Origin: Acidithiobacillus acidisediminis
GTDB lineage: Bacteria > Pseudomonadota > Gammaproteobacteria > Acidithiobacillales > Acidithiobacillaceae
Direction of reading: 5' to 3'
Assembly (NCBI RefSeq): GCF_023277115.1
Contig: NZ_JALQCS010000001.1
Location: 1,730,001-1,794,000 of the forward strand
Length of the DNA stretch: 64,000 bases
Of the stretch, positions 18,589 through 31,524 are shown piece after piece. The translations under genes were made by a program, and so were the position numbers. Numbering within the stretch: the stretch's first letter is position 1; the number at the start of each line of letters is the position of its first letter. The notes under the pieces are model-generated. The model had not been told where the DNA came from, searched no databases, and was given only the letters and a program-made list of their open reading frames with translations.

Positions 18589-18776
18589 TGCAACAGACTG
18601 ATGACTCCCCCATTGTTTTCAATGGGTTATCGAGAGTTAGGCTGTTGCACGGATTGCAACGACTCCTGAGGGTCAACAAGCTTAGGCATTCGCCCTTATT
18701 TATCTGCAACGCAACAGTTGCCTTGCAACACATTAGCACATTGTTTTTTATCACGTTGTAATGAGCTTTCTGCAAC
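18589..18776. promoter_or_regulatory. Shared upstream activator region with clustered TGCAAC/GTTGCA motifs
   Basis: The 476-bp intergenic region 18409-18885 holds no gene. Its middle contains TGCAAC at 18589, 18655, 18705, 18724 and 18771, GTTGCA at 18644, and GTTGC at 18717. They include an inverted pair GTTGCA-N5-TGCAAC (18644-18660) and GCAACAGTTGC (18711-18721). Chance would give roughly 0.1 such hexamers in 190 bp. The block lies ~80-265 bp upstream of both divergent sigma-54 promoters, the usual place for enhancer sites. The activator is probably the product of 27496. Confidence 0.6.
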
Positions 18777-18827
18777 AATATCCGTCACAAATTTAATAAT
18801 TTCACTAAAATACAAACAGTTACAATT

Positions 18828-18842
18828 TGGCACGAACTATGC
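18828..18842 (+). promoter_or_regulatory. Sigma-54 promoter of the RND/TPR operon
   Basis: TTGGCACGAACTATGCTT: GG at 18829-18830 and GC at 18841-18842, 10 bp apart; close to consensus TGGCACG-N4-TTGC. Predicted start ~18854, about 32 nt before the adaptor ATG at 18886. Confidence 0.78.
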
Positions 18843-18885
18843 TTCCGTTTCGTCAGATTACGATTTCTCGAGGGTTTCGTTCGCT

Positions 18886-20019
18886 ATGCAACTCCGTCCT
18901 CTGTACTACGCTTATCTGCTGCTCGGTCTTGCTCTTGCCACCTCTTCTGGCCTTGCCTATGCGGGCCCCAGCCTGCTCCGAGTAAGCACAGCTCCAGCCT
19001 TGGGGCCAGTACTCGGGGCGCGCGCCATCCCCGGTCAAGTGGTCGTGTTGCGGGCACAGAGTGCCGGTCGCGTCGAGTACGTTGCCGGCCCCGCAGGTAC
19101 GCCCGTGCGCAGTGACGAGATTGTCGTTGGTTTGGGCACTAACGCCTTGCGCGCCCAGCGCGCGCAGGCCGAGGCAGCCTATCAGGCGGCGCAAGTGGCC
19201 TTGGGTAATGGGTACTCCCAGTATCAGGTGCAGCTCTATAACTACGGGGGCGGCAATTCCTGGAATCCCTTTTCTTGGTTCGGCCAAGCCTTTGCAGCCA
19301 TGATGGGCAACCAGCGGAACCCGTGGGCTACCTATCTCGCCGGCCTGGATAATCGTCGCGCTACCGCGTTGCAGGCGCGCAGCAATCTGGAATCGGCGGC
19401 TTGGCGCATTCGCGAGATTGATGCGGAAATCCGGGATGCCTACGGGGTCTCGCCCTTTTATGGTGTCATTCTGCAGAAGGACGTGAACCCCGGGGACGTC
19501 GTACAACCGGGGCAATCGCTCTTGGTGTTGGGAGGGGCAGGTCCGGCGCAAATTCTCGTCGAGGTGCCCACCGGCATGAGTACCGATTTGCGCTGGGGTG
19601 ACACACTGGAGGTACGCTCCCCGGAGAGTCGTGGCACCGTCAGGGCGCGTATTATTCAGATCGCGCCCGAGGCCAACGCCCAGACGCACACCATCGCGGT
19701 AAAGCTGGCCTTGCCCGGACATACCGGCATTCGCGCGGGGGATTACGTTACCGTTCGCCTTCCTGCCGTGTCGTCGGCATCCATGGGCGTTGCCATTCCC
19801 CGCTCCGCCCTTCTTCCAGGACGCAGCCTGCCTTCCGTCCTAGTGGACGTTGCCGGGGTCACGCAATTACGGGTGTTGCGCCTCGGGGAATCCCTCGCCA
19901 ATGACCGCGTGCAGGTATTGGCTGGCCTGCGTCCAGGAGAAATCATCGTCAATGATCCGCCCGCTGGCATTGGCTCGGGTTATCATCTGGTAACGTCTAG
20001 TACGGGAGCGAGTTCATGA
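18886..20019 (+). CDS. Periplasmic adaptor (HlyD/MFP) of a sigma-54-controlled RND system
   Basis: 377-aa membrane-fusion protein. Signal peptide (YLLLGLALATSSGLAYA), lipoyl-like halves (VVLRAQSAGRVEYVAGPAGTPVRSDEIVVGL; SPFYGVILQKDVNPGDVVQPGQSLLVLG) around a helical hairpin, then beta-barrel. The hairpin holds an unusual insert rich in Tyr, Asn, Gly and Trp (YSQYQVQLYNYGGGNSWNPF, about residues 108-145), absent from ordinary AcrA-like adaptors. I chose ATG 18886 because it gives the signal peptide and lies just after the sigma-54 start point, with GAGGG upstream. It overlaps the RND gene start by 4 nt. Confidence 0.82.
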   Translation: MQLRPLYYAYLLLGLALATSSGLAYAGPSLLRVSTAPALGPVLGARAIPGQVVVLRAQSAGRVEYVAGPAGTPVRSDEIVVGLGTNALRAQRAQAEAAYQAAQVALGNGYSQYQVQLYNYGGGNSWNPFSWFGQAFAAMMGNQRNPWATYLAGLDNRRATALQARSNLESAAWRIREIDAEIRDAYGVSPFYGVILQKDVNPGDVVQPGQSLLVLGGAGPAQILVEVPTGMSTDLRWGDTLEVRSPESRGTVRARIIQIAPEANAQTHTIAVKLALPGHTGIRAGDYVTVRLPAVSSASMGVAIPRSALLPGRSLPSVLVDVAGVTQLRVLRLGESLANDRVQVLAGLRPGEIIVNDPPAGIGSGYHLVTSSTGASS

Positions 20020-23000
20020 CTGCGCCAGCGTGCAACGGTAACGGCCAGCATTCGCAAGAGGACAGCCCGGTTGCGGCGAAAAATCTGGGCTTGGCAGGCA
20101 GCATTGCAAAGATTTTCATTAACTCCCCACTGGCCCCGCTGTTGCTCATCGTCTTACTTGCAGCGGGGGTGCTGGGCCTGCTCTCCACCCCTCGCGCCTC
20201 GAATCCGCAGATTTCGGTACCCATGGTCGACATCTTTGTGCCGTACTCCGGGCACTCACCGGCAGCGGTGGCACGGATGGTTGCCGATCCCCTGCAGCAG
20301 TTGATGAGTGAGCTTCCTGGTGTTCGTCATGTGTATTCCGTGTCGAATCAGGGCGAAGCGATGGTAACGGTACGCTTTGATGTGGGCGAACACATGGCCC
20401 CGTCGCTGGTAGCGGTCTACAACAAGCTGGCAGCGAATATGAACCGGATCCCTCCCGGGGCCGGTAAACCATTGGTGCGTGCCAAGGGCATCAACAGCGT
20501 ACCCTTCATGACCTTCACCCTGTGGTCGAACAACGTGGGTCCGGGAACCCTCAACGAGATCGCCCAAAGTGCGTTGAAGCGGCTGAAGGAAGTGCCCGAT
20601 ACGGGGGAGAGTTTCATTATTCACGGCCCTACCGATGCCCTGAACATTGATATCCACCCCAGCCGATTGGCAGCCTACGGCTTGACTCCTCAAGCCGTAG
20701 CCGAGACGGTGCAATCCGCCAACCAGGAGCTGCAGAGTGGCAGTGCCGAGGGGAACAATGCGCACCTCTCAGTCCTCAGCGGCGGCTTTTTGCGCAGCCC
20801 GCAGCAGGTGCAAAATCTCGTGGTGGGGGTCTTTCACGGTGCGCCAGTCTACCTTTCCCAAGTAGCAAGGGTGCGCTATGGCCCGGCAACCGCCCACAGC
20901 TTGGTCACCTACACCACAGGCAAGGGATATGGTGGCGTGCCGGTGACCAATGCCCCCGCCGTCACCATTGCCCTGGCAAAAACTGCGGGAAGCAACGCCG
21001 TGACGGTGGGCGCGGCCCTCATCGCCAAAATGAAGACCCTGGAAGGCTCGGTAATTCCTTCGGATGTCCATGTCAGCATCACGCGCAACAAAGGAAAAAG
21101 CGCCAATGACAAGGTCAATTCGCTGCTCTTCAAGCTATTGGTAGCGACGGCCGCTGTCACCCTGCTGATTTTCCTGACCCTGGGCTGGCGTGCTGCGGCG
21201 GTGGTGGTGATTACCATTCCATTGATCTTGCTCATCACGGTGTTTGCTGCATGGATCGTTGGTATCACGATCAATCGAGTCAGCCTCTTTGGCCTCATTT
21301 TCTCCATCGGCATCTTGGTGGACGATTCCATCGTCATCGTCGAAAACGTCTATCGGCGCTGGCTGTTGGAGAATGCCACTTCCACCGACACCCTCATCGA
21401 CGCCGTGCGCGAGGTTGGTAATCCGACGACCCTGGCTACCTTTACGGTGATTGCAGCACTGCTGCCTATGGGCTTTGTGGGCGGCATGATGGGTCCCTAC
21501 ATGGCACCGATCCCCGTGCTCGGCTCCGTAGCAATGTTGTCTTCCCTGTTCATTGCCTTTGCCTTGGCGCCGTGGCTGATTCTGCGTTTCAAGCCCAGCC
21601 TGAAGGTCTTAGAACGAATGCATCATCGCGAAGCCAGACAGGCGGCCTGGCTACGCAAGTTCTTCGCGCAGACCCTCATCCCTCTGGTGCGGCGCAAGCT
21701 TTATGGGCGTCTTTTTCTTACCGGCATCATTCTCGCTTTCTTTGGCAGTCTCGCGCTATTTCTGGTGGAGTGGGTTCCCTTCACCATGCTGCCGCATGGC
21801 AATTCCAACGCCTTCAACGTGGTCGTGAACCTGCCCGCCGGCACCGCGCTACCGCAAACGGCAAACGCCACCTACGCCATCCAGGAACGCTTGCGGGGTA
21901 TGCCGGACGTGTATGCCGTACAGAGCTACGTTGGCACACCAGAACCGTATGATTTCAATGGCATGGTGCGACACTACTATCTGCGCAACCAGCCTTGGCA
22001 GGCGATGATTCATGTGCAGTTGGTCAGCGGCAGTCGGCGCTCTGCTTCCAGTTCAACGCTGGCCAAGGAAGCGCGCAGCCGTATCGAACAGGTGGCTGCG
22101 AGTTGGGGGGCACGCATTCAGGTGGTACAGACACCGCCCGGGCCACCCGTGCTCGCGCCCGTGGTTGCCGAGGTCTATGGCCCGTCTACCGCTGTTCGCG
22201 ATGCCGTCGCACACCATCTGACCACGGTATTTGAACACAGCAAGAATCTGACCGACGTCAACAATACCCTGATGGCGCCTCATGATTTGCTGGCCTTTCA
22301 TGTCGACGCCACGCGCGCGGGCATGGCGGGAATCCGTAACGCAACGGTAAATCATACCCTGGCGATGGTGATGGGCGGCTACAGCTTGGGCGATTTCCAC
22401 CCATTTGGCCAGGATTTGGCGGTGCCAATGCGCCTGCAGGCGCCTTTGTACCTGCGCAGCAATGTACAAAATTTGGCCAACCTGCCCGTCCCCTCGCCCT
22501 ACTATGGCTCCGTACCGCTGTACAGCCTTGGGAATTTCTCCCGCGTTCCTGCGCAGGCACCGATCTATCAACAGGACCTGCGGCCCGTGCAGTATGTGAT
22601 GGGTGATTCCCAAGGCCGCCTGGACGCGCCCTTGTATGGGATGTTGGAGGTGGAGTCGGCCCTCAGCCAGTACGTTGCGCCTACCGGCAAGGCATTGGGC
22701 ATTGATTGGATCAGCCAACCGAGTGGCGACCAGGCAAGCATCAAGTGGGGGGGAGCCTGGACGGTGACCTACCGCACCTTTCGCGATATGGGTGCAGCCT
22801 TCATGGTTGCGTTGGTGCTGATTTACATGCTGGTGGTCTGGGAATTTGGCAACTTTGTCATTCCCGCCATCATCATGGTGCCCATCCCCCTCACCTTGAT
22901 TGGTATCTTACCGGGACATTGGCTCTTTGGTGCCAGTTTCACTGCGACCTCGATGATTGGCTTCATTGCCTTGGCCGGTATCATCGTGCGCAATTCGATT

Positions 23001-23534
23001 CTGCTCGTCGACTACTCCCAGCAGAAGGTGGCCGAGGGTTACCCCGTGCTCGATGCTCTGATCGAGGCATGTGCCACGCGCACCCGCCCTATCGTTATCA
23101 CCGCGCTGGCGTTGATGCTCGGTTCGGCAGAAATCATCACCTCACCCATCTTCCGCGGTATGGGGATCTCGCTCCTGTTTGGGGTGCTGGTGTCCACCGT
23201 TCTTACCCTTCTGGTGATTCCCATGGGTTGCGTCAGCGGTCGGCGCGCCTTTTGTCCCGCCAGTGTTGACCTTGGCGATGGCAGAAACCCAGTTCGCGCG
23301 CCCTTCCCCATGAGCCAGCGTAGGTGGATTTCAGTACAGGCCGGAGAGTATCCGTTAACGCGGACGGAGACCTTGGCGGCTGACGGGAAGCGCGCGTCTT
23401 CGCGCAATAAGCCTTCGACCAAATCCAAAGGCTTTGCACTGATTGCTCTGGTATTACATAGCTTCTGGAAAGATTTTTACCAGTTTATTGCGGCCTGGCG
23501 TCGCTTCCTTTCGCGTTATTTTTCTAAGCAATGA
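20016..23534 (+). CDS. RND-superfamily permease with extended C-terminus
   Basis: 1,172-aa RND transporter, 12 TM helices in two halves. TM4 carries the proton-relay pair D436-D437 (GILVDDSIVIVENV); the second half has FIALAGIIVRNSILLVDY. It is closer to the AcrB/heavy-metal-like RND branch than to MmpL. After the last TM (VLTLLVIPMGC) there is an atypical cytoplasmic tail of ~100 basic residues ending HSFWKDFYQFIAAWRRFLSRYFSKQ; ordinary AcrB-like proteins end within 20-40 residues. No TolC is encoded in this operon. Substrate unknown; the neighbouring secreted low-complexity proteins make an envelope-building role possible (inference). Confidence 0.83.
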   Translation: MTAPACNGNGQHSQEDSPVAAKNLGLAGSIAKIFINSPLAPLLLIVLLAAGVLGLLSTPRASNPQISVPMVDIFVPYSGHSPAAVARMVADPLQQLMSELPGVRHVYSVSNQGEAMVTVRFDVGEHMAPSLVAVYNKLAANMNRIPPGAGKPLVRAKGINSVPFMTFTLWSNNVGPGTLNEIAQSALKRLKEVPDTGESFIIHGPTDALNIDIHPSRLAAYGLTPQAVAETVQSANQELQSGSAEGNNAHLSVLSGGFLRSPQQVQNLVVGVFHGAPVYLSQVARVRYGPATAHSLVTYTTGKGYGGVPVTNAPAVTIALAKTAGSNAVTVGAALIAKMKTLEGSVIPSDVHVSITRNKGKSANDKVNSLLFKLLVATAAVTLLIFLTLGWRAAAVVVITIPLILLITVFAAWIVGITINRVSLFGLIFSIGILVDDSIVIVENVYRRWLLENATSTDTLIDAVREVGNPTTLATFTVIAALLPMGFVGGMMGPYMAPIPVLGSVAMLSSLFIAFALAPWLILRFKPSLKVLERMHHREARQAAWLRKFFAQTLIPLVRRKLYGRLFLTGIILAFFGSLALFLVEWVPFTMLPHGNSNAFNVVVNLPAGTALPQTANATYAIQERLRGMPDVYAVQSYVGTPEPYDFNGMVRHYYLRNQPWQAMIHVQLVSGSRRSASSSTLAKEARSRIEQVAASWGARIQVVQTPPGPPVLAPVVAEVYGPSTAVRDAVAHHLTTVFEHSKNLTDVNNTLMAPHDLLAFHVDATRAGMAGIRNATVNHTLAMVMGGYSLGDFHPFGQDLAVPMRLQAPLYLRSNVQNLANLPVPSPYYGSVPLYSLGNFSRVPAQAPIYQQDLRPVQYVMGDSQGRLDAPLYGMLEVESALSQYVAPTGKALGIDWISQPSGDQASIKWGGAWTVTYRTFRDMGAAFMVALVLIYMLVVWEFGNFVIPAIIMVPIPLTLIGILPGHWLFGASFTATSMIGFIALAGIIVRNSILLVDYSQQKVAEGYPVLDALIEACATRTRPIVITALALMLGSAEIITSPIFRGMGISLLFGVLVSTVLTLLVIPMGCVSGRRAFCPASVDLGDGRNPVRAPFPMSQRRWISVQAGEYPLTRTETLAADGKRASSRNKPSTKSKGFALIALVLHSFWKDFYQFIAAWRRFLSRYFSKQ

Positions 23535-23551
23535 TCTCGAGGAGACCACCA

Positions 23552-24595
23552 ATGACAGCAAAGTCTTCACCGCAACCCGGTCGCGTTCTCGCTATAGCCA
23601 TTACCCTCAGTTTTTTTGCTGCCGCGACGGCCTCTGCGGCTCCCTATGAGGGGATGTCATCTGTAGGTTCTGGGGTCTATCCAAGTTGGGATGGCAGCAG
23701 CGCTGCTGCTCCGGGACAGCCGGGACCTTCGGGAATGATCCCCTGGCAAGGCGCGCCACAGGCGAGCGCCAGGCCGACCCAATTTCCCTCCGCGCCGAAC
23801 GCCGGACCCAAAGCGCCTTGGTCAAACTACCCGAACACCCGTCCCACTGCGGCTTGGCCGGCAGCGCCCACCTGGGCGAATTCGGCCCGCTCCGAGCCTG
23901 TAGCTTATGTTCCCCCACCCCCAGGTCCCTATCCAGTGTCACCACGCGAGATGAGCGAGGGGGCAACCGGGATGCCAGCACAGGCAGCACCGCGTTCTGG
24001 CTACGGCCCAGCGGCTGGCCCCGAGGGCTATCCGGAGACTGGGCCGCAGGGGCCGATGCCCTATGGTCCCGCAGCGGAAGGAGTTGGCCCGCAAAGACCC
24101 TATCCACCGATGCCTCCGGCGGGGATGATGCCACCTGGCTATGGTTCCGGCCCCGGGCCGATGGCATACGGACCCATGCGCCCAGGCCCAGCACCCATGC
24201 CCCCCCGCTGGGCGGGACCAGAACCGTATGGGCCACCTCCCGCAGCGTATGGCCCTCCCCCGGAGGGACCCTACCCACCCGTACCGGAGATGGCTGGTCC
24301 GCGTGGCTACCCACCACCCTATCCCGGGATGATGCCACCGGCCCCCGGCTATGGGCCGATGCCGGGCCGTTTTGGGCCTCCCCCGGAAGGACCTTACCCA
24401 CCGCTGCCACAGATGAACGGTCCACGTGGCTACCCACCACCCTACCCAGGGATGATGCCCCCTCCTCCCGGCTACGGTCCGATGCCCGGTCGTTTTGGCC
24501 CTCCTCCCGCAGGGGCGTATCCGCCACCGCCGCCAATGGCTGCAGGGCCCTACGGGCCACCGCCTTGGGCACAAGGCCCGTGGGGGCCCAGATAG
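23552..24595 (+). CDS. Secreted proline-rich repeat protein
   Basis: 347 aa: a signal peptide (VLAIAITLSFFAAATASA) followed by ~310 residues dominated by Pro, Gly, Tyr and Met. From about residue 234 there are two full 41-residue repeats and a partial third, each with GPPPEGPYPP, GPRGYPPPYPGMMPP and PGYGPMPGRF. No cysteines or enzymatic motifs are seen. Such sequence is expected to be extended or disordered and extracytoplasmic. ATG 23552 has GAGGAG 8 nt upstream and starts 18 nt after the RND stop. No known family recognised; a surface, matrix or periplasm-spanning role is a guess. Confidence 0.7.
   Translation: MTAKSSPQPGRVLAIAITLSFFAAATASAAPYEGMSSVGSGVYPSWDGSSAAAPGQPGPSGMIPWQGAPQASARPTQFPSAPNAGPKAPWSNYPNTRPTAAWPAAPTWANSARSEPVAYVPPPPGPYPVSPREMSEGATGMPAQAAPRSGYGPAAGPEGYPETGPQGPMPYGPAAEGVGPQRPYPPMPPAGMMPPGYGSGPGPMAYGPMRPGPAPMPPRWAGPEPYGPPPAAYGPPPEGPYPPVPEMAGPRGYPPPYPGMMPPAPGYGPMPGRFGPPPEGPYPPLPQMNGPRGYPPPYPGMMPPPPGYGPMPGRFGPPPAGAYPPPPPMAAGPYGPPPWAQGPWGPR
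24251..24540 (+). repeat. 123-bp coding tandem repeat
   Basis: Two full copies (starting 24251 and 24374) and a partial third (from 24497) of a 123-bp unit inside the Pro-rich gene, exactly 41 codons, with synonymous differences between copies. Confidence 0.85.
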
Positions 24596-24654
24596 ATACG
24601 CAGCGTTGCCCTGATGCGCGCTGTGTTGCACGAAAAGTAGAGAGGTGAATGAAC

Positions 24655-25185
24655 ATGAAGAAGACGAGATTGATGGTTGCATTGGCTGGAGCCTTGGCGT
24701 TGGCCATACCGGTAAGTGCCCTTGCTTGGGGCCCGTGGGGGGGCGGAATGCCGTGGTCGGGATGGGGTGGTGGTTCCCCCTGGTCGAGTTGGGCTCCCTG
24801 GGACGGGGGCGGCTACAGTAATCCCTGGGATAGCAGCTCTGGGCCCTGGAGCGGCTATGGCGGCCCTTTCAACGGCAATTCTGGACCTTGGAGTATGGGG
24901 GGTTTCAGCATGCAATTCCCTCACGGTGGGCCGATGAATTTTGCCGGTGGGCCATGGAATGGCTGGGGACAGCCTTGGTCCGGCTGGGACGGCGGTGGTT
25001 CCCCCTGGTCGGGTTGGGGGGGTAACGAGATGCCCTGGTCCGGAGGCGGAATGCCGTGGTCTGGAGGCGGAATGCCCTGGTCCGGCTGGGGTGGGGGCAG
25101 TCCTTGGTCCAGTTGGGGCAGCCCTTGGGGTGGCATGAGTCCCATGTCGCCTTGGGGACCCATGTCGCCCATGGGCATGTGGTAA
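24655..25185 (+). CDS. Secreted Trp/Gly-rich low-complexity protein
   Basis: 176 aa from ATG 24655 (ATG 24649 is two codons earlier). A signal peptide (LMVALAGALALAIPVSALA) precedes a mature chain starting WGPWGGG. The mature part is composed almost wholly of Gly, Trp, Ser, Pro and Met in PWSGWGGGSPWSSW and MPWSGGG units; tryptophan is exceptionally frequent for any protein. It shares the GGPMNF/GNSGPW core with its neighbours at 25199 and the split gene. No cysteines and no charged patches. Likely an exported envelope or surface protein; glycine-tryptophan repeats suggest stacking or a sticky, hydrophobic surface (inference). AGAGAGG and AATGAAC lie before the start. Confidence 0.72.
   Translation: MKKTRLMVALAGALALAIPVSALAWGPWGGGMPWSGWGGGSPWSSWAPWDGGGYSNPWDSSSGPWSGYGGPFNGNSGPWSMGGFSMQFPHGGPMNFAGGPWNGWGQPWSGWDGGGSPWSGWGGNEMPWSGGGMPWSGGGMPWSGWGGGSPWSSWGSPWGGMSPMSPWGPMSPMGMW
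25030..25092 (+). repeat. 21-bp coding repeat, three units (MPWSGGG)
   Basis: ATGCC(C/G)TGGTC(C/T)GGAGGCGGA begins at 25030, 25051 and 25072, encoding MPWSGGG, MPWSGGG and MPWSGWG. Differences between the units are mostly synonymous. Confidence 0.8.
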
Positions 25186-25198
25186 GAGGAGCGCGGAA

Positions 25199-25672
25199 AT
25201 GAATACAACAACATCGTATCGCTTTGCCGCTTTGGCTGCTGCGCTGCTCGTTGCCGGACTAGCGAGTAGTCCGGCCCTAGCCTGGGGCCCTTGGGGCGGC
25301 TGGGGACCCTGGGACAACGGGATGGGGCCATTCTCTGGGTTTGGAGGTCCCTTTACCGGCAACATGGGGCCATGGAGCATGGGCAATATGCAGATGCAGG
25401 GCCCCCATGGCGGACCCATGCGGTTCAGCACTGGCCCCGTCGGAGGCTACGGTGAGCCCTATCAGGGGTACTATGGAGGGGCGGGTTATGGCCATTCTGC
25501 CTACTCTTCCGGCTACCGACCCTATGCACCGACTTACCCGCCGGTGGGCGAGGCCTACTACGGATATCCTGAACAGAACGGATCGGTGACGATGCCACCC
25601 GCGCCCCAGGAAGGCGCAACGCCAGCGAGCAACTTCGTTCCCCCTCCACCCGGGCCTTTCAGCCCGTACTGA
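25199..25672 (+). CDS. Secreted Gly/Trp/Tyr/Pro-rich protein, paralogue of the IS-split gene
   Basis: 157 aa. Signal peptide (FAALAAALLVAGLASSPALA), mature start WGPWGGWGPWDN, then GFGGPFTGNMGPWSMGNMQ, GPHGGPMRFS and a Tyr/Gly/Pro tail (GYYGGAGYGHSAYSSGY..) ending PPPPGPFSPY. It shares the order of motifs with the split gene at 16381-18408 and the core GPW..GN..GGPM.F with 24655. A strong GAGG/AGAGGAG lies ~8 nt upstream. Followed at 66 nt by the TPR gene, the same pair order as in the divergent copy. Function unknown. Confidence 0.72.
   Translation: MNTTTSYRFAALAAALLVAGLASSPALAWGPWGGWGPWDNGMGPFSGFGGPFTGNMGPWSMGNMQMQGPHGGPMRFSTGPVGGYGEPYQGYYGGAGYGHSAYSSGYRPYAPTYPPVGEAYYGYPEQNGSVTMPPAPQEGATPASNFVPPPPGPFSPY

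Positions 25673-27495: not shown

Positions 27496-27499
<4 letters not shown>
26972..27499 (+). CDS. Single-TM coiled-coil protein with Pro/Tyr-rich tail
   Basis: 175 aa: short cytoplasmic N-terminus, one TM helix (LIVFAALAAFLVLAAYEFYLAV, ~25-46), a heptad-like helical region (DLRAMTKQVQALSPNVQRNMDSMAANMQQM in pieces, ~50-95) resembling chemoreceptor or MCE-type helical stalks, then a Pro/Tyr/Gly tail (GYSQPYVPPQGYTPPQAYGG). AAGGAG precedes ATG 26972. It overlaps the activator gene by 4 nt. Unknown function, but clearly part of the operon. Confidence 0.68.
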
Positions 27500-28851
<1,352 letters not shown>

Positions 28852-28928
28852 GCCAAGCGCGCAGTCTTCTTGGTTTATGCTGATCATTGTATTACGCTGT
28901 AACTGTAGACGATATGGAGGACTACCCT

Positions 28929-29270
28929 ATGCATACCTCGACCAAACTGGGACTCGCGTCGCTCTTCGCGCTGAGTCTCGGCAGCTTACCTTTGGCTGCT
29001 GATGCCAGCACCACCGCCGCGCCCATGAACGGGCAGCAGCAGATGTCGACAAACGGCATGCACAAGAGTGAGGGCAATTGTTCACGAACGATGGGGGAAG
29101 GCAACTGTTCCCGACGTATGGGAGAAGGAAATTGTTCTCGTCGCATGGGAGAAGGTAATTGTTCCCGCAGCAAAGGGAAGATGGCAGAATCTCATTGTAC
29201 CAGCAAGGCGCAAATCCGCGCCCACGATGGTAAATGTGGCAAGAATTACATGAATCATAAAGGCATGTAA
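28929..29270 (+). CDS. Bufferin-like RiPP precursor with four EGNCS repeats
   Basis: 113-aa secreted peptide. Signal peptide of ~26 residues (LGLASLFALSLGSLPLAADA), a Met/Gln/Asn spacer, then Cys motifs: EGNCS at C51, C60, C69 and C78 with an exact 9-residue period, ESHC at C90 and DGKC at C103. It lies directly before a DUF692 (MNIO) oxidase and a DUF2063 protein, the arrangement of bufferin and methanobactin-type clusters, where the oxidase modifies core cysteines to make a copper-binding product. Described bufferin precursors of one type carry EGKCG repeats; EGNCS is a variant I do not recognise. GGAGG lies 8 nt before ATG 28929. Metal-binding role and modification are inferred. Confidence 0.75.
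   Translation: MHTSTKLGLASLFALSLGSLPLAADASTTAAPMNGQQQMSTNGMHKSEGNCSRTMGEGNCSRRMGEGNCSRRMGEGNCSRSKGKMAESHCTSKAQIRAHDGKCGKNYMNHKGM
29070..29177 (+). repeat. Four 27-bp coding repeats of the precursor core
   Basis: Each unit encodes EGNCSR(T/R/S)(M/K)G. The units differ mainly at silent third positions (GAGGGCAATTGT, GAAGGCAACTGT, GAAGGAAATTGT, GAAGGTAATTGT), so the peptide repeat is conserved while the DNA has drifted. Confidence 0.88.
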
Positions 29271-29278
29271 CCACCAAA

Positions 29279-30088
29279 GTGGGCTCCTGGGGGCTTGGCC
29301 TGCGGCGCGAATTTCTAGCGGAATTCGCGGCGCGATCGACGGACATTCAACTGGATTTTGTGGAAATTGCGCCGGAAAACTGGTTCGGTTTCGCCGGTCC
29401 GGCAGCGCAAGAACTAGAGCGAGTTCTTGCCAATAAGACGCTGTTCTGTCACGGGTTATCACTATCGATTGCCGGTCCACAACCCCTCAACTGGGACTTC
29501 CTGGGACAATTACGGCGATTTTTGTGTGATCATAATGCGGTGGCCTACAGCGAACATCTGTCGCATTGTCAGGATTCCCAGGGCTACCTGCATGATCTCC
29601 TACCCATTCCTTTTCATGAAGAAAGTCTGCGCTGGACCGTGGCACGGATTCAGCAAGTGCAGGATTTCCTCGGCCAGCCGTTGATACTGGAAAATACGGC
29701 CTATTACGGCAGCTTTCCCGAGTCCTCCATGAGCGAACTCGAGTTTCTGTTAGCCGTTCTGGACGAAAGCGGTTGCGAATTACTACTGGACCTGAATAAT
29801 CTCTTCGTCAATGGTCACAACCACGATTATTCCAGCGAAGCGTTTCTTGCCGCCCTCCCCGCCGAACGAATTCGCTACTTTCATGTTGCGGGCCATTTTC
29901 AACACCCGGCAGGCTGGCTGATCGATACCCACGACAGTGGCGTCGCGCCTGCCGTCCGTGCGCTGCTGCGGCAGGCCTGGCATCGATTTGGACCACGCCC
30001 CACCCTGCTGGAATGGGATAACGACATACCGCCCCTCGCTACGTTGCTCAAAGAATTGGAAGCCCTGCGCCGTGGATGCGACGACTGA
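29279..30088 (+). CDS. MNIO-family oxidase (DUF692, BufB/MbnB-like)
   Basis: 269 aa. TIM-barrel multinuclear iron-dependent oxidase that modifies cysteines of a partner peptide. Visible family motifs in order: LDFVEIAPENWFG, HGLSLSIAG, YSEHLSH, LLPIPF, LILENTAYYG, LLLDLNNLFVN, YFHVAGH, IDTHDSGV and LLEWDNDIPPL; the His, Asp, Asn and Glu residues are the expected iron ligands. GTG 29279 lies 8 nt after the precursor stop; a later in-frame start is not attractive because LGLRREF is the normal family beginning. It overlaps the next gene by 17 nt. Confidence 0.88.
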   Translation: MGSWGLGLRREFLAEFAARSTDIQLDFVEIAPENWFGFAGPAAQELERVLANKTLFCHGLSLSIAGPQPLNWDFLGQLRRFLCDHNAVAYSEHLSHCQDSQGYLHDLLPIPFHEESLRWTVARIQQVQDFLGQPLILENTAYYGSFPESSMSELEFLLAVLDESGCELLLDLNNLFVNGHNHDYSSEAFLAALPAERIRYFHVAGHFQHPAGWLIDTHDSGVAPAVRALLRQAWHRFGPRPTLLEWDNDIPPLATLLKELEALRRGCDD

Positions 30089-30830
30089 GTACTTGCACCG
30101 CTTGGATGATCTCGCTGGCCGCCTGCGACAGCCGGCCGCGGCACCGCCCACTGGGATGGCACCAGAGATATTTGCCTTATATCAGGGGATGTTTCGCGCC
30201 AATTTCTTTGCCAGTTTGGCAGATGCCTTTCCCGAAAGCCGACGTCATGTCGCGCCAGCACTCTGGGAGCAATGGGTCGATGACTTTCTTGCTGGGGGCA
30301 CTTGCCCAAGTCCCAGCTTTCACGCCGTGCCGGATGCGTTTTTCGCCTTCCTTACGGGTAACCCGGCGCAATTCGAGAAAGTGCCTGCCTATCTTCCCGC
30401 CCTGCTGCATTGGGAATGGCTGACCCTCACCCTCGCCATCAGCACAACTCCCGAGCCCGTGGCTGCCTGCGGAGATCTCTGGGAGCAGTCGTTTCAGCTC
30501 GCGGACAGTGCGCGCGTGCAACACTATCCGTTTGCCGTCCATCTCCCCTTGGCGCCAGGACAGGAAGCAACGCAACGCGATTGTTATCTCTTGGTCTATC
30601 AGAATTGCCAGGGAGCGGTCATAAGTCGCGAATTGCCCCTTGCGCAGGCACGCCTCGCCACGGCCTTGGCAGAAGAGCCAAGGATCGCCCGGGAAGCGCA
30701 TACCCTCGCCTTCCCGCAGGGCGAATATTCGAGCGAGTGGACGCTGGCCATCCTAGGAGAATGGTGGGAAGACGGTATTCTCCAGGCTACGAGCCAGAGC
30801 TCTTCTCGGGTTTCGCCATCTCGGCCTTGA
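30072..30830 (+). CDS. DUF2063 partner of the MNIO oxidase (BufC/MbnC-like)
   Basis: 252 aa from GTG 30072, overlapping the oxidase gene by 17 nt. The N-terminal DUF2063 domain is recognisable (IFALYQGMFRANFFASLADAFPESRRHVAPALWEQWVDDFL, YLPALLHWEWLTLTLAI). In related systems this protein presents the precursor peptide to the oxidase. The C-terminal half is less conserved. The end of the gene overlaps the convergent pspA by 44 nt. No exporter is encoded next to it; the signal peptide on the precursor suggests Sec export after modification. Confidence 0.82.
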   Translation: MDATTEYLHRLDDLAGRLRQPAAAPPTGMAPEIFALYQGMFRANFFASLADAFPESRRHVAPALWEQWVDDFLAGGTCPSPSFHAVPDAFFAFLTGNPAQFEKVPAYLPALLHWEWLTLTLAISTTPEPVAACGDLWEQSFQLADSARVQHYPFAVHLPLAPGQEATQRDCYLLVYQNCQGAVISRELPLAQARLATALAEEPRIAREAHTLAFPQGEYSSEWTLAILGEWWEDGILQATSQSSSRVSPSRP

Positions 30831-31506
30831 GGCGAGCAAGATCATCATCGACGCCACTTTGCTCGCGCAATTGCGCCATTTCCTTATCGGTATGACTGCG
30901 GTGATCGAGGGGGTCATCTATGGCGCCCGAATCCATGAGCGACTCCATAGCCTCGGCCTTGCTCTGCGATTGCGACACGCGATCCTGCACCCGTTGCATC
31001 GCTTCGCCAGCGTCATTCATACCCTTGCCCAAACCAGAGAGGGAATTCTCTGCCTGAATTTCGGCTTGCGAAGCGGCTAGTTCGCCTTTCATGACCTCTT
31101 TCTGGGTGCGGAAGGATTCAATCTTGTCCTGCAGTTTGCTCTCAAAATCGCTGAGCTTGGCCACCTGAGCCGCGATCTTGTCATGAGCATCCTGCAATGA
31201 CTGCAGTTTACTCAGGGCGGCCTGTTTCTGTGCCAATTCCGCCTTAGCGAGGTCCTCACGGTTAGCCTGCAGTGCCGTACGGGCATCCGCCTCGGCCTGA
31301 TCGGCGACCTTCTGCGTATCGGCAATCTGATGCTCCAAACTCAATTTTTCGGTAGCAACGTCCGCCAAATGACGTTTGGTGTCTTGCAGGTTGCTCATCA
31401 TCTTTTCGTAAGATAGGTCGAGGGTTTCCGCGGGATCCTCGGCGTTATCGAGAAAATGATTGATGCGCGCCTGCATGATTTCCGAGGCATGTTTGAATAG
31501 GGACAT
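30787..31506 (-). CDS. pspA: PspA/IM30-family envelope stress protein
   Basis: 239-aa, almost entirely coiled-coil PspA/Vipp1-family protein (SLFKHASEIMQARINHFLDNAEDP at the start is the typical amphipathic membrane-binding helix, followed by the conserved LDLSYEKMMSNLQDTKRHLADV). Such proteins assemble on the inner membrane and limit proton leakage. Distal gene of an operon with two YbjQ-domain genes and a small unknown gene. No PspB, PspC or PspF is visible, so regulation differs from the E. coli psp system. ATG 31506 gives the canonical start. Confidence 0.85.
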   Translation of the reverse strand: MSLFKHASEIMQARINHFLDNAEDPAETLDLSYEKMMSNLQDTKRHLADVATEKLSLEHQIADTQKVADQAEADARTALQANREDLAKAELAQKQAALSKLQSLQDAHDKIAAQVAKLSDFESKLQDKIESFRTQKEVMKGELAASQAEIQAENSLSGLGKGMNDAGEAMQRVQDRVSQSQSKAEAMESLMDSGAIDDPLDHRSHTDKEMAQLREQSGVDDDLARLKAEMAKPEKSSGS

Positions 31507-31524
31507 GATCACACTCCTGGTCTA

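Follow-up and report, generated by a model that had tools for sequence, protein, structure and literature searches.

An EGNCS-repeat RiPP operon of the bufferin/captophorin class conserved in the Acidithiobacillaceae

The genes at positions 28929-30830 of the window, by which we mean the whole 64,000-nucleotide stretch of Acidithiobacillus acidisediminis DNA that was analysed, form an MNIO-PME1 RiPP operon of the bufferin/captophorin class, as judged from their sequences, the invariant iron ligands of the enzyme and the predicted structure of its partner. The operon is real, conserved and functionally plausible: the order of its genes, their conservation, the families to which enzyme and partner belong, the co-occurrence of precursor and MNIO and the phylogeny are all in evidence. 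As a variation on a class of peptides that was discovered only recently, it is modest. Its setting is of interest in that the Acidithiobacillaceae include biomining bacteria, sulfur-oxidising acidophiles noted for copper tolerance. Our literature search returned no report of an MNIO or DUF2282 protein in Acidithiobacillus and none of MNIO metallophores in extreme acidophiles, although EGNCS may sit unnamed in the supplementary precursor lists of two landscape papers.

Organisation of the operon and its precursor

The features of the locus are as follows.
28916..28920, + strand: GGAGG, Shine-Dalgarno-like, 8 nt 5' of the precursor ATG (sequence reading)
28929..29270, + strand: RiPP precursor gene, 113 aa, six Cys, four EGNCS (open reading frame; 19 of the 29 family genomes have a homologue)
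28929..29006, + strand: probable Sec signal peptide/leader, aa 1-26, with putative cleavage after ADA (hydropathy)
29070..29177, + strand: core repeat, four 9-aa/27-bp EGNCS units, aa 48-83 (TRF, shuffling, silent-site count)
29187..29240, + strand: C-terminal element ESHCTSKAQIRAHDGKCG, aa 87-104 (family alignment)
29279..30088, + strand: MNIO (DUF692) maturase gene (PF05114; invariant iron-ligand residues; LRR and EWDN signatures)
30072..30830, + strand: DUF2063/PME-type-1 partner gene, encoding an RRE-containing HvfC-like protein (PF09836; AlphaFold model)

The first-pass annotation had described a bufferin-like operon in which a 113-residue precursor with four EGNCS units plus ESHC and DGKC precedes the DUF692 and DUF2063 genes, and the open reading frames, TRF and Pfam confirm this arrangement. 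The EGNCS units start at residues 48, 57, 66 and 75 and place cysteines at 51, 60, 69 and 78 with an exact 9-residue period, followed by Cys90 (ESHC) and Cys103 (DGKCG); the motif count is thus four EGNCS, one DGKCG and no EGKCG. TRF reports the 27-bp array at 29073-29167. The repeat is beyond chance: when the mature precursor was shuffled 20,000 times, no Cys-containing 5-mer was ever seen four times, the maximum recurrence being two. The four pentamers are separated by at least six changes, 100% of which are silent where the silent-site fraction is 0.20 (p ~6e-5), which supports strong selection on EGNCS, in line with the earlier proposal that the peptide is under selection. The accompanying statement that the repeats differ mostly by silent bases holds for the pentamer and fails for the whole 9-mer, in which the spacer residues vary (RTM, RRM, RRM, RSK). 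At the N-terminus the hydropathy peaks at 1.92, versus -0.33 or less elsewhere in the protein, over a hydrophobic stretch with ADA|S that is similar across all family precursors in the alignment and appears compatible with a Sec signal. The precursor has no Pfam match up to E 1, and hence no DUF2282 match.

Only 8 nt separate the precursor stop from the MNIO start, the MNIO gene runs 17 nt into the DUF2063 gene, and pspA (30787-31512, minus strand) converges on the 3' end of the operon. The maturase matches PF05114 (E 1e-92) and the HvfB-like structure 3BWW (E 6e-54), a protein reportedly 72% identical to HvfB (PMC13419390). Its iron-ligand residues H58, H93, E138, D171, N174, H202, D216, H218 and E245 are invariant across 85 MNIOs, with N174/D216/H218 corresponding to the HvfB site-3 ligands N175/D242/H244 (PMC13419390). 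The partner matches PF09836 (E 1e-12, 48.4 bits versus a cut-off of 27.2) and contains an NGO1945_C domain; the top PDB matches of its AlphaFold model (pLDDT 89) are NGO1945 (3DEE), TglHI and, more weakly, MbnABC, so that the predicted fold is as expected of a PME-type-1 RiPP partner. Domains, iron ligands and partner fold thereby support the initial assignment to the MNIO-DUF2063 RiPPs. Both proteins nevertheless score under the NCBIfam equivalog cut-offs (322.7 versus 360 for HvfB and 269 versus 310 for BufB in the case of the MNIO; 129.1 versus 142 for HvfC in the case of the partner), and we therefore regard them as a diverged branch.

Known relatives and distribution in the family

The closest characterised systems are the EGKCG captophorins or Buf_EGKCG (oxazolin HvfABC, fontiphorin FonABC and gonophorin NgoABC), with which the window operon shares a putative Sec-type N-terminus, repeated E-G-x-C 5-mers, an HvfB-like MNIO with the LRR motif, a DUF2063 (HvfC-like) partner and the group in the MNIO tree. 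It differs from them in having EGNCS for EGKCG, a 9-aa period, a fixed C-terminal ESHC...DGKCG element, EWDN for ERDF in the MNIO, scores below the HvfB and HvfC equivalog cut-offs and no adjacent DoxX. Bufferin 1 (DUF2282, BufA1/B1/C1) likewise combines an MNIO that carries EWDN, a DUF2063 protein and a secreted Cys precursor, as the window's probably is, but the window precursor lacks the DUF2282 match and its MNIO belongs to another clade, being ~38% identical to the source genome's own DUF2282-type MNIO. Methanobactin MbnABC and TglHI are related through the MNIO superfamily and through a partner fold that matches MbnC and TglI; their sequences are distant and their precursors different, and the Pfam and NCBIfam scores of the window proteins favour HvfB/BufB.

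The idea that the EGNCS precursor is unique to the window was rejected. Checking EGNCS in relatives recovered the precursor in 19 of 29 Acidithiobacillaceae genomes, with E-G-[N/G]-C-S in one to four copies. These 19 genomes, and no others, also encode an MNIO of the EGNCS clade, which in one of them (G011) is a partial match that ends at a contig end; the other ten genomes lack both. This co-occurrence gives a Fisher value of 5e-8 with the genomes treated as independent and kinship ignored. The source genome is of Igneacidithiobacillus type, its closest named loci being those of Acidithiobacillus sp. YTS05 and of Ca. Igneacidithiobacillus taiwanensis, and the tight precursor-MNIO-partner order is maintained in three genera. 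All 36 EGxCS units compared, drawn from 18 loci, keep E, G, C and S; either N or G occupies position 3, and the remaining differences are silent. EGNCS is the usual form, and EGGCS takes its place in G007 and in two genomes that belong to another genus. The family alignment consists of a common N-terminus, EGxCS in zero to four units and, at the C-terminus, the element E-x-[HK]-C ... AH[D/G]G[K/N]CG, the last being retained in orphan copies with zero or one EGNCS and lost solely in one truncated copy. Within the window's genus the EGNCS copy number is 1, 2, 2, 3 and 4, the window having the highest. The R-rich spacer, which had been taken as a hallmark of the core, is shared by Igneacidithiobacillus with two related genomes from a different genus and with a single orphan copy; in most Acidithiobacillus precursors Q/K stands there.

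In a maximum-likelihood tree, 18 EGNCS MNIOs form one clade (96/89) that joins the MNIOs of EGKCG precursors (oxazolin/fontiphorin) at 100/99, apart from the source genome's DUF2282-type MNIO and from its third MNIO, the one with an RHGCSG-repeat precursor. Wider searches with the family precursor profile, in samples of 369 class genomes and 398 phylum genomes (767), gave weak matches only, for the most part precursors of EGKCG type next to MNIOs with 44-46% identity; no EGxCS precursor was found outside the Acidithiobacillaceae in these genomes, and an EGNCG precursor does occur there (L140). Since the EGNCS MNIOs group with EGKCG MNIOs and the outside matches are EGKCG-type, we infer that the operon is an Acidithiobacillaceae-specific derivative of the EGKCG class rather than an independent invention. 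The different core proposed in the first-pass annotation is not confined to the window: the trait is family-wide in one to four copies, and the enzymes of EGKCG precursors form the sister group of its own.

Proposed maturation, metal binding and rival readings

By analogy with characterised relatives, the EGNCS peptide is most likely modified, exported and copper-binding. Taking oxazolin, fontiphorin and the bufferins as models (PMC13097082, PMC13419390, PMC12452194), we propose that the precursor would be synthesised with its putative Sec signal and presented by the DUF2063 protein to the MNIO, whose mixed-valent diiron centre would carry out a four-electron oxidation of the EGNCS cysteines to 5-thiooxazoles in the cytosol, the cysteines of ESHC and DGKCG probably being oxidised likewise. 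The modified peptide would then pass through Sec to the acidic periplasm. There its thiol(ate)s may bind, and so sequester and buffer, a soft metal, with Cu(I) the most likely candidate, and EGNCS copy number (1-4) would set the number of sites. We consider it likely that the whole of this reading is correct, that is, an Acidithiobacillaceae-specific subfamily of EGKCG-type MNIO-PME1 RiPPs with 5-thiooxazoles serving as a Cu(I) buffer in the acidic periplasm.

The identity of the metal is one point at which this scheme may fail. With the pathway unchanged, the product might instead bind or detoxify mercury, silver, arsenic, reactive sulfur or oxidants, an alternative that we consider unlikely. 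No copper gene adjoins the EGNCS cassettes, one orphan precursor adjoins a two-component system, the source genome's second, DUF2282-type cluster with DoxX could already serve copper, and clusters of this kind are also switched on by gold and by oxidative stress, their metal specificity being unsettled (PMC13097082). All characterised MNIO-PME1 products tested nevertheless bind Cu(I) (PMC13097082), and at the precursor loci examined the neighbouring genes point to no specific metal, neither copper nor any other. It seems highly improbable that the precursor, as a Cys-rich metal-binding or thiol protein, is secreted without modification and is a mere neighbour of the MNIO pair, given that an EGNCS-clade MNIO is found in every precursor-bearing genome and in none without the precursor, and that the gene order is so tightly kept. 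The evidence in favour of this rival comes from orphan copies distant from any MNIO in G009, G011, G012 and G022. Counting against the main reading, G009 has an MNIO pair without an adjoining precursor, the precursor lying on a different contig. Homologues without the DUF692/DUF2063 pair, which had been named beforehand as grounds for dismissing the operon, thus exist to the letter, yet all four genomes encode the pair elsewhere. Stand-alone precursor genes, which may be modified in trans, are moreover known from this class (PMC12452194), and for both reasons we do not count the orphans as refutation.

The nature of the modification is the other point to be weighed. FonB contacts motif Glu1 through Arg15/Arg16 and both Lys3 and Gly5 through Phe250 (PMC13097082). 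With FonB numbering placed on the window MNIO by motif rather than by sequence, the Arg pair is retained, alongside the retained motif Glu, and Asn stands at the Phe position, a substitution whose match to the altered motif positions 3 and 5 is suggestive only. In the double-variant panel of FonBC, the best-studied enzyme, only Gly or Ala was accepted at position 5 (PMC13097082), in contrast to EGNCS, and Cys-Ser is therefore a real uncertainty; Ser at this position may entail no chemistry or a different one with the window enzyme. FonBC does fully process DGKCG substrates (PMC13097082), and this motif is retained at the C-terminus of the window precursor. It is conceivable, though distinctly unlikely in our estimate, that Ser after and Asn before the cysteine lead to another heterocycle, or that ESHC/DGKCG alone are modified. 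The blocking of FonBC by position-5 variants other than Ala speaks for this, as does the finding that EGNCS-clade MNIOs carry W246 and N/H248 at the positions occupied by R and F in gammaproteobacterial EGKCG MNIOs. On the other side, DUF2282-type MNIOs share EWDN, and Caulobacter bufferin 1 carries 5-thiooxazoles (PMC13097082); N248 is also found in Myxococcota and Campylobacterota KCG-type enzymes, and residue 248 therefore does not define substrate class. The candidate explanation that a correlated F-to-N change accounts for the EGNCS substrate is weakened by the same occurrences of N with KCG precursors and in DUF2282-type MNIOs, so that N may be ancestral. It seems to us decidedly doubtful that this MNIO subfamily has an altered active-site pocket and gives EGNCS peptides either a modification unlike the 5-thiooxazole of EGKCG or a metal site whose geometry suits the very low pH of the periplasm and may serve a metal that is not copper.

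As a natural pairing of substrate and enzyme, the EGNCS system offers a direct test of how the MNIO active site selects residues around the modified cysteine, and the related species with one, two, three and four copies provide a natural series relating site number to metal capacity. The peptide is likewise a candidate metal buffer in extreme acidophiles.

Regulation, neighbourhood and other MNIO loci

A PAS-AAA+-Fis sigma-54 activator without a receiver domain lies at window positions 27496-28851, 77 bp 5' of the precursor. Because of this activator we searched for a sigma-54 promoter near the precursor and found none, and sigma-70 and terminator scans at the locus were at chance level. The window's cluster has no DoxX, ECF sigma factor or copper gene next to it. 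In YTS05 an insertion with transposase remnants stands between the cassette and the PAS-AAA+-Fis activator, and two genomes of another genus have a different, receiver-type sigma-54 activator upstream instead. The entire cassette is relocated beside pspA in the window's genus; in the other genera it sits just 5' of a recC-like gene identified by eye (L117, L118, L115, L116, L124), and among these Acidithiobacillus has an Slp outer-membrane lipoprotein gene upstream of it. The orphan EGNCS precursor of G009 (L110:5938-8302) is beside a two-component system (Fis-type regulator and histidine kinase) and near cytochrome c biogenesis-like genes, making a redox link possible. Elsewhere in the window (18718-25672), an RND efflux pair (HlyD_D23, ACR_tran) is followed by three secreted low-complexity proteins, P/G-rich and then W/G-rich, with 123-bp and 21-bp repeats and no Pfam match; the two W/G-rich proteins are conserved across the genus.

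Two further loci of the source genome lie outside the window. One, at G000:C1:555000-557500 (L001/L123), is a DUF2282-like bufferin cluster that includes DoxX and a gene resembling a sigma factor. The third MNIO (G000:C1:1843807-1844598; L003/L122, also L012 and L107) is preceded by a 104-aa precursor with two GGMMRHGCSG repeats, which may represent a further precursor type, and by a DsbG-like thioredoxin-fold protein. This locus seems to be mobile, since two other genomes hold near-identical copies of it and transposases lie nearby.
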